From Myxococcus hansupus (GTDB taxonomy: Bacteria; Myxococcota; Myxococcia; Myxococcales; Myxococcaceae): a stretch of DNA of 64,000 nucleotides. The notes under the pieces were generated by a model that saw nothing but the letters and a program-made list of their open reading frames with translations, did no database searches and was not told the DNA's origin. The position numbers and the translations under genes were made by a program. Numbering within the stretch: position 1 is the first letter of the stretch; every line of letters starts with the position of its first letter. Below, one piece after another: positions 5,241-9,563 of the stretch. The DNA is taken from assembly GCF_000280925.3 (NCBI RefSeq), contig NZ_CP012109.1, positions 4,980,501-5,044,500 on the forward strand, written 5' to 3'.

Positions 5241-6395
5241 TCAGGCGTCGGTACCCCGCACGATGCGTTGGTACAGCGCGTCATGGCGGCGGACCATCTT
5301 CTCCAATGACAGCTCACGCGCGACGAAGTCCCGCGCGGCCTTGCCCATCTCTCTCGCCTTCTCGGGATTCGAGAGCAATTGGCGGAAGGCCTGAGCGAGC
5401 TGTGCGGGGCGCTCGGGGTCCACCACCAGGCCCCGCTCGCCGTCGCGGACGAGGTCGGTGTTGCCACCCACCCGTGTCACCACCATGGGGAGCCCCGCGG
5501 CCATGCCCTCCATGACGGCGTTGGACATGCCCTCCGCGGTGGAACAGAGGACGCCGAAGTTCGCCCGCGCGTAGATGGCGGGCACGTCCGTGCGGTGTCG
5601 CAGGAAGTGAACGATGTCGCGCACCCCCAGCTCCCCCGCGAGCTTCTCCAGGCCGGGGCGGCGCTCGCCGTCGCCCACGAGGAAGGCATGCAGCTTCACG
5701 CCCTCGTGGCGCAGCATCGCCAGGGCGAGCAGCAGGTCCTCCTGCCGCTTCACCGGGTGGCTCATGTTGGCCACGTGGACCACCACTGGCGCGCCGCCCG
5801 TCTCGGGCAGGGGGCCGCGCAGGCCCTCGCGCCGGCGCGACTCGAAGCGCGGCAAATCCAGGCCGTTGTGGATGACGGAGACGCGCGAGGCGGGCAGACC
5901 CTCCTCGGTGATGAGCTGGTTGCGGATGGCCTCCGCGTTGCCAATCACGTGGTCCGCCATGCGCGTCAGCCGCGAGTGCACGGCGCGCCGCGCCCGCCCC
6001 TGCCAATGCGACAGGTCCAACCGGCCGACGATGACCTTGGTGCCCGCAAGCTTCGCGGCCGGCACGGCCACCATCGTCGAATAGAAGTCGTGCACATGCA
6101 CCAGCTCCACCCGGTGCTGCCGGAGCCAGCGCGCCATGCGGTACACCTGATACGCCGTGTTCGCCTGCACCACGGAGCCCTTGAGCGGGAAGGCCGCGGG
6201 CGCGTGCCCCAGCTTCCACACCGCGCCAATGAGCGGCCCCGAGTCATCCAGCACGGACACCTGCAACCGGTAGCTGGGGGGCAGCCCCCGCAGCAGCTCC
6301 AACACCTGCACCTCGGTCCCTCCAATGTGGAAAGACCGGGTGAACTGAACCAGGCGAAGGGGCTCTTGCCCCATCCGCGCTTCCTCACGCCGCAT
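5241..6395 (-). CDS. Glycosyltransferase family 4 (GT-B)
   Basis: A 384-residue retaining GT-B glycosyltransferase. The N-terminal acceptor half begins LRLVQFTRSFHIGGTEVQV with the glycine loop. The C-terminal donor half has the EX7E motif (E288 to E296 in EGMSNAVMEG) followed by TRVGGNTDLV. The start ATG at 6395 follows GGAGGGG with 7-nt spacing and overlaps the stop of the upstream polymerase gene by 11 nt, so the two are translationally coupled. A second in-frame ATG at 6374 also has a fair RBS. The pairing with a Wzy/WaaL-like protein points to surface polysaccharide synthesis. From memory of Myxococcus xanthus gene order, this would match the glycosyltransferase beside the spore-coat Wzy; that is unverified. 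Confidence 0.85.
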   Translation of the reverse strand: MRREEARMGQEPLRLVQFTRSFHIGGTEVQVLELLRGLPPSYRLQVSVLDDSGPLIGAVWKLGHAPAAFPLKGSVVQANTAYQVYRMARWLRQHRVELVHVHDFYSTMVAVPAAKLAGTKVIVGRLDLSHWQGRARRAVHSRLTRMADHVIGNAEAIRNQLITEEGLPASRVSVIHNGLDLPRFESRRREGLRGPLPETGGAPVVVHVANMSHPVKRQEDLLLALAMLRHEGVKLHAFLVGDGERRPGLEKLAGELGVRDIVHFLRHRTDVPAIYARANFGVLCSTAEGMSNAVMEGMAAGLPMVVTRVGGNTDLVRDGERGLVVDPERPAQLAQAFRQLLSNPEKAREMGKAARDFVARELSLEKMVRRHDALYQRIVRGTDA

Positions 6396-7668
6396 GTCCG
6401 GACCCCTCCCACGTCGCCACCACCGGCTCGCGAGGAGCCGGAACCCGTTGCATGTCCGCCGCGGCTTCCGTCGCCCGCGCGATGCGGTGCGCCGCCGCCG
6501 CCAAACCAAAGAGCACGTAGCAGTGCGCGGACAGGATGTAGCCGGAGAACAAGTCACACACGAGATAGCCCGCCACCGACGCGGACAGCGCCCGCGCCAG
6601 CCAGCCAATCTCCTTGTCTCGCGACGCCTCGAAGGCCCCGCCCGCCGCGCCGCCCGCGAACACCATGAAGAACGCCAGTCCCACCCAGCCCAGCTCGCCA
6701 ATCACATCCAGGAAGATGTTGTGCGCCACGTACGCGCGGCGCGCCTCGGGCGGCGCGTACATGGGCCACGCGTAGCGGAAGCTGCCCGCGCCCACGCCCA
6801 ACAGCGGCTTGTCCAGGCTGATGCGGCTGGCCACCTGCCACGCGTAGACGCGGCCCATGGCGGACGCATCCTCGTGGAACTCGGCCACCGTCTCGTTGCG
6901 CTGCCAGAAGCTCTGCGGCGCGAAGACGAGCAGGCCCAGCACGAAGAGCGAGCCCACGACGATGGACTGGATGCGGCGCTTCTCACGGATGGCCCACAAG
7001 CCCATGGCCACCGACAAACCAATGAAGCCACCGCGCGAGTGGGAGACGACGATGGCCGCCACCGCGAGGCCCGCCGCCACCAGACACGCCAGCCGCCACA
7101 CCCAGGCGCTGCCCTTGCGCGCCACGAAGGCCACGGCCAGCGGCACCACCAGGGCCAGATTCATGGCCATGTGGTTGGGGTCCGCGTAGACGCCCACCCA
7201 GCGCGCGCGGAAGCCTTCCACCAGGTCCTCGCCCACCAGGTACCAGTTGATGGCGCCAATGGACGTCACCACCGACGCGAGCACCATGGCCCCGCACACC
7301 ACCGCCAGCCGGCGGCCCGTGGTGATGACGTTGACGAACGTGATGTAGATGGCCGTCAGCTTCAACAGCTCGACGCCCGTGGTCGTCGTGACCTCCGGAT
7401 TCACGGACCAGCCGACGGAGGCCACCGCCAATGTCGAAAAGGCGATGAGCGACAGGCCGCGCGAGCCGTCCACATACAGCGGCTCCGCCCGGCCCAACCT
7501 GCGAATCACCATGAGCCCCGCCGCCACGCCAGACGTCACCAGCGCGAGGCGAAGCGGCGCGAGCGCCGGAATCCACTCACCCGGAACCGCGTACATCACC
7601 GCCGCGAAGGCGGTCAGCGCATAGAAGGCCCACACGTCACGGCGCTGCCCCTGCTCTCCCAGCACCAT
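6385..7668 (-). CDS. O-antigen ligase/Wzy polymerase-like membrane protein
   Basis: A 427-residue integral membrane protein with about ten hydrophobic segments and the large periplasmic loop typical of the Wzy_C/O-antigen ligase family. The conserved loop segment GVGAGSFRYAWP is followed by HNIFLDVIGELGWVGL. Such proteins polymerise undecaprenyl-linked repeat units or ligate them to lipid A core. The ATG is preceded by GGAGG. It is coupled to the downstream glycosyltransferase, and a sigma-54 promoter candidate lies about 45 nt upstream. Counting genes from aglZ, the position agrees with my memory of the M. xanthus spore-coat polymerase wzyS. The function is an inference from synteny, so no symbol is given. 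Confidence 0.8.
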   Translation of the reverse strand: MVLGEQGQRRDVWAFYALTAFAAVMYAVPGEWIPALAPLRLALVTSGVAAGLMVIRRLGRAEPLYVDGSRGLSLIAFSTLAVASVGWSVNPEVTTTTGVELLKLTAIYITFVNVITTGRRLAVVCGAMVLASVVTSIGAINWYLVGEDLVEGFRARWVGVYADPNHMAMNLALVVPLAVAFVARKGSAWVWRLACLVAAGLAVAAIVVSHSRGGFIGLSVAMGLWAIREKRRIQSIVVGSLFVLGLLVFAPQSFWQRNETVAEFHEDASAMGRVYAWQVASRISLDKPLLGVGAGSFRYAWPMYAPPEARRAYVAHNIFLDVIGELGWVGLAFFMVFAGGAAGGAFEASRDKEIGWLARALSASVAGYLVCDLFSGYILSAHCYVLFGLAAAAHRIARATEAAADMQRVPAPREPVVATWEGSGHAA

Positions 7669-7718
7669 TCACTCCACCTCCCGGCAGTTGCGTCGCGCAC
7701 CAATACGCGTGCCTGGGC

Positions 7719-7738
7719 GAAAGCAGAGGACATGCCAG
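7719..7738 (-). promoter_or_regulatory. Sigma-54 (-24/-12) promoter candidate for the Wzy-like gene
   Basis: The minus strand reads CTGGCATGTCCTCTGCTTT. It matches the -24 element TGGCACG at six of seven positions and the -12 element TTGCW at four of five, with exact GG-to-GC spacing. The expected start of transcription is near 7712, leaving a leader of about 44 nt with GGAGG before the ATG at 7668. Enhancer-binding proteins drive such promoters; no activator site was sought. Confidence 0.5.
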
Positions 7739-7818
7739 GGGCCCCATCGGGCAAAGCCCTGAATCTTCTAAGACGGGACGGCCTCGCCTGGCTGGCGGGC
7801 CGCCCGGGACTGAAATTC

Positions 7819-9480
7819 CTACGGGATGGGGGCGGACTCCATCGGAAGGATCGCCGAGGCCACCGGCTCCAGCCGGCCGTCCTGGAGCCACGCCGTTCCC
7901 AGTTCCTCCAGGAGCCGGGACAGCGTCACCCCCACCAGCCGGTGCAGCTCCGCGTGGGCCTCGGGGGGCACCACGGGCTCCAGCCCCTTCCGGGCGCGCT
8001 CGGCCGCGGAGTCACGCACGCGCGGTGCGTCCGGGGTGCCCTCGAAGAGGCGCTGGCCCAGCTCCACCACGCGGCCCAGCGGGACCGGGCGTGGATCAGC
8101 GCGCTCCTCCAACACCGCCATGGCCACCACCGCGGCGAAGAGCCGCTCCACGCCCAGCGTCTCCAGGGACACACCGAAGCGCGCCAACGCCTCCCGGGCC
8201 GCGTCGTCGTTGCCGCCCAGGGCGCCGCGCAGCAAGGGAATCTGCGCCTCCGCGCGGGCCAGCAGCGCCTCGCTGGCGGCCAGCTCGCGACGGGAGCGGA
8301 ACGGCACCGGCTCCGCGCCCTCCACGCGCAGCGCCCGCCGGGGCCGCTTCTGCCGCAGCGCCACGATGGCGGCGGCCTCCTCCGGCAGCACCATCAGCAC
8401 GCCCTCCAGCAGGGCCCCCGGCAGCTTCATCAGCCGGTCCGCGCGGAACTTGAGCTGGAGCGTCAGGGAGAAGCCCGTCTGGAAGATGCGCCGCATGGGC
8501 GTGTCCCGCAGGACGTCCGTGGCGCGCTCCGTGTCCGCGCCCGTCAGGTGCTCGAGCCCCAGCGACAGGTAGTCGCGCACCGTCTCGCTGGCGCGGCGGA
8601 TGGCGTCCAGGTCTCCGGGGTCCGCCAGGTCCGCCACCAGCGCGGCGCTGGCCACCTCGCGCAGCTCGTCCTCCGCGTTCAGGGCCTCCATCAACGTCAG
8701 CCCCCGGAAGGCCGCTTCCAGGTAGTCCACGTGGCCTGACTGCGGCACCAGTCCGGGGCGCGCAGCGGCCGTGGGCGAAGGCGCCACGTCCATGCGGCTG
8801 AAGAGCGCCACGGCGTCCTCCAGTGACGGGAAGCCCAGGTCCGCGAGCCGGCCGCGGCGGAACTGGTACGCCGTCTCCTCCATCTCACTGGGCAGCTCCC
8901 AGCGCACCGCCTCCAGCAGGCGCACCGCCTCGAAGGGGTTCTCCGCCAGGAGGTCGTTGAGGAGCATCCGGACGGCGGACATCTCCACGCCCTCCACCTT
9001 GATTTCAATGAGGTAGCGCCCCTCGGGCGTCTCCATCGTCACGCCCGGCGGGTTGACGTCCGGGTTCTCCTCCAGGTCATGCACCTCGACGAACTCGCGC
9101 AGGAGGTACTCCACCACCTCCAGGTCCACCGCGTGCAGCTTGCGCAGGAACTCGGCCGTGTCATCCACCCCGCCCCGCGCCGCGCGCAGCCAGGTGAGGA
9201 CGGCGTGTGAGTCCAGCTTGTCGCGCTGCCAGCCGCCCAGGTCCACGAAGGCGCGGAACTGCCCGGGCGACGCGAGCTGCACCAGCTCCGTCGCGTCCGC
9301 CAGCCCCAGCTCCTGGATGGTGACGTAGAGGTCCTCGGCCGGCATCGAGCGGACCAGCGCCCGTGCCTCCGCGACATCCAGGAGGGCGTCCACGCGCTGA
9401 CGCGGGGACAGCCTCATCAACCGCTGACGCAGCTCCCGTGGGGCGAGCTGCACGTCCTTGCCATTTCCGTTCTCGGACAC
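7819..9480 (-). CDS. DUF6178 family protein
   Basis: A 553-residue soluble protein of unknown function, recognised as the DUF6178 family common in myxobacteria and related deltaproteobacteria. It is largely helical, with segments such as LRQRLMRLSPRQRVDALLD and LVRSMPAEDLYVTIQELG near the N-terminus. No catalytic motif is evident. I chose the GTG at 9480, which follows AGGGA by 8 nt and gives VSENGNGKD; longer in-frame extension upstream is not supported. It is followed by a 150-bp gap holding the sigma-54 promoter of the next gene. Confidence 0.7.
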   Translation of the reverse strand: MSENGNGKDVQLAPRELRQRLMRLSPRQRVDALLDVAEARALVRSMPAEDLYVTIQELGLADATELVQLASPGQFRAFVDLGGWQRDKLDSHAVLTWLRAARGGVDDTAEFLRKLHAVDLEVVEYLLREFVEVHDLEENPDVNPPGVTMETPEGRYLIEIKVEGVEMSAVRMLLNDLLAENPFEAVRLLEAVRWELPSEMEETAYQFRRGRLADLGFPSLEDAVALFSRMDVAPSPTAAARPGLVPQSGHVDYLEAAFRGLTLMEALNAEDELREVASAALVADLADPGDLDAIRRASETVRDYLSLGLEHLTGADTERATDVLRDTPMRRIFQTGFSLTLQLKFRADRLMKLPGALLEGVLMVLPEEAAAIVALRQKRPRRALRVEGAEPVPFRSRRELAASEALLARAEAQIPLLRGALGGNDDAAREALARFGVSLETLGVERLFAAVVAMAVLEERADPRPVPLGRVVELGQRLFEGTPDAPRVRDSAAERARKGLEPVVPPEAHAELHRLVGVTLSRLLEELGTAWLQDGRLEPVASAILPMESAPIP

Positions 9481-9563
9481 GGCGCGGTCCCTACCACAGC
9501 GACCCCCGGCCCGGGAGGGGAACCCCACCCCAAGCGGCCGTTACCCGATGGAGCCCTGCCCCG

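Follow-up and report, generated by a model that had tools for sequence, protein, structure and literature searches.

A conserved sigma-54-like promoter element ahead of a probable spore-coat polysaccharide polymerase gene in Myxococcus hansupus and its likeness to the exoA operon promoter

The genes for the myxobacterial spore coat lie at separate places on the chromosome, which poses the question of how those for export, flippase and polymerase are switched on jointly. The locus described here raises that question for the polymerase: does a gene standing far from its presumed pathway partners carry a promoter that could bring it under common control with them? In what follows, the window is the whole stretch of 64,000 nucleotides of Myxococcus hansupus DNA that was analysed. 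Three genes of the window, all on the minus strand, frame the analysis.

6385..7668, minus strand: wzyS/exoJ-like polysaccharide polymerase, 427 aa, with a Wzy_C domain (Pfam PF04932, E 7e-22)
5241..6395, minus strand: GT4-family glycosyltransferase (Pfam Glycos_transf_1, E 2e-32, and Glyco_transf_4; the domain begins at residue 115 of a long ORF)
7819..9528, minus strand: upstream gene of the DUF6178 family (Pfam PF19676, E 1.5e-131), the 3' end of which borders the promoter

The probable start of the glycosyltransferase, an ATG at 6395, overlaps the stop codon of the polymerase, and the two genes are therefore likely to share a transcript as a putative operon. The polymerase occurs as one full-length copy in the 9.49-Mb genome and is matched at E <= 1e-20 in 104 of the 145 genomes of the order. 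Its closest named relatives are Myxococcus records, and the orthologue identity search that the initial annotation had suggested returned 94% identity in M. xanthus AM003 (L003). One record titled Comamonas sp. KCTC 72670 (L002) holds a polymerase 97% identical to the myxobacterial one, and its label is probably wrong.

The identity of the polymerase was approached through the loci with which it might cooperate. An operon encoding OPX, beta-barrel, Wzz, AAA kinase and sugar transferase proteins is located near 4.733 Mb, at a distance of 254 kb from the polymerase, in a gene order that we take to match exoA-E. A second locus at about 4.64 Mb encodes a polysaccharide deacetylase, a Polysacc_synt_3 (Wzx-like) protein, a hexapeptide transferase and glycosyltransferases, presumably the exoL-P set. 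The genome contains five Wzy_C genes, two of the others being neighbours of OPX or Wzx genes that belong to different loci (8.725 Mb near an OPX gene at 8.745 Mb, and 7.334 Mb near a Wzx gene at 7.354 Mb). Among 59 genomes, the polymerase is present in 34/34 with exoL as against 1/25 without it (Fisher p ~1e-15, with kinship ignored). The exo-type operon 254 kb away and the co-occurrence with exoL make wzyS/exoJ, a spore-coat polymerase, the most likely identity of this gene; the M. xanthus counterpart bears the names exoJ and MXAN_3026. The same two observations lend support to the proposal of the initial annotation, drawn from remembered synteny, that the polymerase makes spore-coat glycan. 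In M. xanthus, the spore-coat polymerase WzyS lies 223 kb from the WzaS/WzcS/WzeS tract and is reported, in a note in proof, as required for spore-coat polysaccharide (PMC7310880).

Ahead of this gene, the minus strand at 7738-7722 reads CTGGCATGTCCTCTGCT, upstream of the minus-strand ORF 6385-7668. The element and the features predicted from it are as follows.

7737-7722, minus strand: putative -24/-12 sigma-54 promoter element TGGCATG-TCCT-CTGCT (from sequence and orthologue conservation)
7709..7713, minus strand: predicted transcription start, at about 7711 (from promoter geometry, with GC as -13/-12)
7674..7682, minus strand: probable ribosome-binding site GGGAGGTGG (from sequence)

The core consists of GG at 7736-7735 and GC at 7724-7723 with a gap of exactly 10 bp, and comparison with TGGCACG-N4-TTGCW gives two mismatches, a T for C in the -24 box and a C for T in the -12 box. 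The element stands 69 bp ahead of the ATG at 7668 and on the same strand as the gene, a strand that had been left unstated. From this geometry the wzyS message would begin with a 5' leader of about 43 nt that carries GGGAGGTGG ahead of the ATG. Neither a sigma-70-like promoter nor a terminator was detected in 7600-7900, and a sigma-70 promoter for wzyS was rejected on the absence of any match in that interval. A second sigma-54-like site, AGGCACGCGTATTGG (7714-7700, two mismatches), was not counted as a promoter because the GC at -12 is missing and because a GCACGCG block there lies about 100 bp farther off in Corallococcus. Many orthologues retain this leader block (window 7713-7705, minus strand; L007, L010 and others); in Myxococcus it follows the promoter immediately, and in Corallococcus it lies about 100 bp farther down, just before the gene.

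The sigma-54 word on its own is a modest match and weak evidence. When the GG and GC are required, sites with no more than two mismatches occur only three times in the 128 kb of strand that the window offers (both strands), or 0.009 per 400 bp of one strand. At up to three mismatches and without the GG/GC rule, 186 matches were counted in the window and 268 in shuffles, a frequency below chance. Over the 9.49-Mb genome, TGGCAYG-N4-YTGCT occurs at 19 places compared with 10 for the reversed control, and 14 of the 19 stand 43-151 bp before a start under a crude ORF rule. Many of the 18 exact sites other than that of wzyS (L105-L123) stand directly ahead of a start codon, and these 18 are candidates for sigma-54 promoters elsewhere in the genome.

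Since the word alone is weak, conservation among orthologues is what raises the site above chance. Upstream segments of orthologues were collected from named contigs and genomes, identical segments were merged, and the remainder were scored for GG-N10-GC sites. All 66 distinct upstreams retained have such a site (61 with two mismatches or fewer, five with three), each segment being anchored on its best match and the segments being mutually related, with many from one genus. These 66 exclude the paralogues L090, L091, L093 and L094, the distant orthologues L099-L102, and L025 (40% identity, no site seen, unscored); orthologues of families f2, f4, f5, f6 and some others lie outside the wzyS count. 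The conserved site spans 17 genus-level groups in three families. Among 21 genus or family representatives, picked after sites had been seen and not independent of each other, 17 have a site at two mismatches or fewer within 400 bp, compared with 0/21 antisense and 0-4% in dinucleotide shuffles; the four without one belong to families f3 (three) and f9 (one). Despite kinship and selection, the shuffle rates are far exceeded by the agreement found across 17 genus-level groups. The initial annotation's reading of a sigma-54 promoter with correct spacing and position is thereby borne out for the word itself and backed by this conservation and by the range of M. xanthus sites listed in Table 1 of PMC9765219.

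The pattern of conservation follows the parts of a -24/-12 element. The TGGCA and GCT columns agree in 17/17 sites and neighbouring columns mostly in 6-11 of 17, a contrast inflated by anchoring on the best site, and the N4 spacer drifts while the GG-N10-GC core and its spacing stay fixed. The distance from promoter to start codon ranges from 36 to 115 bp among the representatives and reaches about 170 bp in some Corallococcus, where site and gene are about 100 bp farther apart and the site is still present; the element thus keeps its place relative to the upstream blocks though leaders differ by about 100 bp. In Corallococcus L007, L011, L018 and L019, the roughly 100 extra bases between -12 box and gene carry variable inverted repeats. 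Sites are present even where the polymerase is only 44-49% identical (L096-L098). The four distant orthologues had no site at two mismatches or fewer, and the four paralogue copies (53-55% identity) had 0/4 at the same threshold. These paralogues are second Wzy copies, 53-55% identical to the query and devoid of the promoter element, in genomes G043, G046, G047 and G065.

The presumed partner loci were then compared. The exoA gene has TGGCACACGCGCTGCT 94 bp ahead of its ATG, and a sigma-54 site at two mismatches or fewer stands 93-110 bp before the start in 27/27 exoA orthologues scored (30 loci, of which three short ones were skipped). Ahead of the exoL/wzx operon, TGGCA(C/T)-N6-TGCA was found at 50-86 bp in 30/30 (two to three mismatches). 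By their sequences, all three spore-coat polysaccharide loci have conserved sigma-54-like promoters, and the wzyS, exoA and exoL/wzx gene groups are probably switched on together in sporulation. What is new here is the conserved sigma-54 sites at exoA and exoL/wzx together with two further elements common to wzyS and exoA. In the window these two elements are the following.

7749..7765, minus strand: proximal shared element GATTCAGGGCTTTGCCC, about 28 bp upstream of the -24 box, resembling exoA GATCCATGGGCTTTCCC
7810..7815, minus strand: distal conserved TTTCAG, a candidate enhancer half-site, 78 bp upstream of the -24 box and directly after the DUF6178 stop codon

At exoA, GATCCATGGGCTTTCCC lies 30 bp upstream of the -24 box, and the elements common to wzyS and exoA have matching spacing: measured upstream from -24, GATYCA lies at some 29 bp and TTTTC(A/C) at some 80 bp; both words were picked after looking at the sequences. 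GATnC(A/G) at -34..-26 from the -24 box was found in 50/66 wzyS and 16/27 exoA upstreams (24/27 with a looser word) and in about 1% of shuffles, and in 0/30 exoL upstreams and 0/18 other genomic sigma-54-like sites. TTT(T/C)C(A/C) between -200 and -50 was found in 34/66 wzyS, 18/27 exoA, 16/30 exoL and 3/18 other upstreams, compared with 5-6% of shuffles, and peaks at -79/-80 in wzyS and at -80..-82 in exoA. We regard TTTTC(A/C), about -105 from the predicted start, as the likely enhancer and GATYCA as a putative accessory site. The window's own word, TTTCAG, recurs in 51/66 orthologue upstreams, mostly at -77..-79. As it follows the DUF6178 stop codon at a near-constant distance from the promoter in the window and in these upstreams, the end of that gene and the promoter seem to share their evolution as a single unit.

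The distal element takes a fuller form at the partner loci. In exoA and some exoL upstreams the TTTTC element is part of a palindrome, GGAAA-n-TTTTTC, and within 400 bp upstream of wzyS the full palindrome was found in 0/24 genomes, wzyS having only the half-like TTTTTCAG; its left half may be missing because it would overlap the DUF6178 stop codon. In this genome GGAAA-N0-4-TTTTTC occurs just twice, once ahead of exoL and once ahead of exoA, a count that proves nothing alone because the word was drawn from those loci and the reversed control yields two as well. In 24 other genomes (108 palindrome hits), it stands within 400 bp upstream of exoA in 9/24 and of exoL in 3/19, where 0.00017 per 400 bp is expected, a comparison that is partly circular as some loci had been seen beforehand. 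A 20-column exoA weight matrix reached p<=0.01 at only 19/66 wzyS upstreams, which we read as an effect of one-base length differences, and the plain word test was used instead. The relaxed search with GATnCAnGGnnTTTnCC gave 17 places at one mismatch or fewer compared with four for the control, and among these matches only exoA and wzyS have a sigma-54 site (two mismatches or fewer) close downstream; L164, near the wzx operon, has none. Upstream of the exoA operon (L103 upstream of 15954, minus strand; L127-L156), two conserved palindromes, GGAAATTTTTCC and GGGAAAnCnTTTTCCC, lie some 75-90 and 145-155 bp ahead of the -24 box and are good enhancer candidates.

Sequence, position, conservation, the elements in common with exoA and the co-occurrence with exoL are established by these comparisons. 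Very probably, the element functions as the sigma-54 promoter of a unit of two (or more) genes headed by wzyS/exoJ and is fired by an enhancer-binding protein (EBP) in sporulation, together with the exo loci. RNA polymerase with sigma-54 would be held closed at the -24/-12 element of 7737-7722 until an EBP-type activator, bound at the TTTTC(A/C) some 80 bp ahead of the -24 box, opens the complex during sporulation, possibly assisted by a protein or a bend at the GATYCA element. The same arrangement would act before the exoA operon, with the conserved sigma-54 site before the exoL/wzx operon, so that the genes for export, precursors, flippase and polymerase, which are distributed over about 0.34 Mb, would come on jointly. 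We infer the dependence of the wzyS promoter on sigma-54, as well as the activator, its binding place and the timing, from these sequence patterns. Counting against this reading are the two consensus positions that differ, the lack of GATYCA at exoL and of the full palindrome at wzyS, and the lack of a site in L099-L102.

Which EBP might act was considered against known binding sites. The conserved TTTCAG at about -78 and the TTTTC(A/C) that wzyS shares with exoA coincide with no known EBP site. Nla6 recognises a direct repeat, C(C/A)ACGNNGNC, of which a scan of 260 bp in the window gave no exact copy, one lying on the other strand at -339; nine scattered exact hits in the 66 wzyS upstreams include no conserved exact copy. 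Nor did the consensus for IHF match exactly in any of the 66. Exact Nla28 half-sites CT(C/G)CG(C/G)AG (consensus as given in PMC9765219) were absent from the window upstream and present in 4/66 upstreams at no common position. The FruA word GGGYR-N4-6-YGGG given in PMC4320627 had no exact copy in the window upstream and scattered hits among orthologues, four of them at -44, and the MrpC site, with consensus words from PMC9765219 and PMC4320627, had no conserved exact copy among the 66. Sites for IHF, Nla28, FruA and MrpC at wzyS were accordingly set aside. In glycerol-induced sporulation of M. xanthus, rpoN is reported to rise early and nla4, nla6, nla18 and nla24 to be needed, with fdgA (=exoA) up 12.3-fold and nla6 up 20.6-fold (PMC2875238). 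The exo genes are placed in developmental group 8, peaking in the sporulation phase (PMC6791715). These published expression data fit the sigma-54 reading and name no activator. A total of 53 EBPs are predicted, and rpoN itself is reported to be vital (Keseler and Kaiser 1997). Work by Giglio et al. from 2015 reportedly has Nla6 binding the exo and MXAN3259 operons, with wzyS absent from that target list.

It is conceivable, at somewhat below an even chance, that one EBP recognises an enhancer of the form TTTTC(A/C) / GGAAA-n-TTTTTC, some 105 bp ahead of the start, and, with GATYCA as an accessory site, fires wzyS, exo and exoL/wzx alike. Such a protein would define a dedicated spore-coat regulon in Myxococcaceae and their neighbours, with an old promoter kept at 44-49% polymerase identity. 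A rather doubtful alternative holds that sigma-54 control is real and that the activator of wzyS differs from that of the exo operons (for example a starvation EBP), GATYCA and TTTTC being bound by general helpers such as an IHF-like protein. The sequence GATnCA-n4-TTT is loosely IHF-like and lies between the distal element and -24, the place IHF would usually occupy, and the full exoA/exoL palindrome is absent at wzyS (0/24). Against separate activators, GATYCA is not general (0/18 at other genomic sites, 0/30 at exoL), exact IHF consensus is lacking in every wzyS upstream, and the offset of TTTTC(A/C) is equal at wzyS and exoA.

It is improbable that the block is conserved for some different role in DNA binding or RNA, such as a repressor site or leader structure, and resembles -24/-12 by accident. 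Further conserved blocks do stand nearby, GCACGCG being found in the leader of many orthologues, but exactly the GG-N10-GC core is kept at fixed spacing beside a drifting N4, its position relative to the upstream blocks holds despite leader differences of about 100 bp, and the sister operons carry the same core. A chance match in a GC-rich genome, for which the 186 loose matches in the window might speak, is rejected as highly unlikely on the conservation in 17/21 representatives at a shuffle rate of 0-4% per representative, the 0/21 antisense and the paralogue copies without a site.

With its conserved sigma-54 promoter and elements common to exo, the polymerase gene offers a concrete and testable rule of co-regulation for these scattered genes, and the wzyS promoter region could serve as a short DNA bait for the activator that would commit the cell to coat synthesis. 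The promoter itself belongs to a known class, and the joint wzyS/exoA architecture is the part worth testing. A search of titles and abstract openings found no description of a sigma-54 promoter of wzyS/exoJ; subscription literature lay outside its scope, and an earlier prediction is possible, for example in a 2005 sigma-54 regulon paper.

Compared with the Nla6 regulon, which reportedly comprises exo and MXAN3259, the exoA and exoL operons here have sigma-54 sites, and wzyS is without a conserved exact Nla6 site. The wzyS element falls within the range of the M. xanthus sigma-54 sites in Table 1 of PMC9765219, where pilA is given as TGGCATG-N4-GTGCT, actB as TGGCACA-N4-TTGCT, the mutationally analysed nla28 as TGGAGCG-N4-CTGCT and MXAN5040 as TGGCACG-N4-CTGCT. 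It has the -24 TGGCATG of pilA and the -12 CTGCT of nla28 and MXAN5040, with an N4 spacer throughout, and these four are starvation or developmental genes. Unlike Nla28 targets, the wzyS upstream is without conserved CT(C/G)CG(C/G)AG half-sites, and unlike exo, to which FruA is reported to bind upstream in M. xanthus (PMC4320627), wzyS conserves no exact FruA consensus. The promoter of the exo (fdgA/exoA-I) operon, the pathway partner of WzyS, likewise combines a sigma-54 element with GATCCA and TTTTC, which stand 30 bp and about 80 bp, respectively, ahead of -24; wzyS lacks full copies of the two GGAAA-TTTCC palindromes of exoA. As with M. xanthus WzyS/ExoJ, the Wzy_C polymerase described here, recognised from its sequence, lies far from the exo locus on the same chromosome, at 254 kb compared with the 223 kb reported in PMC7310880.
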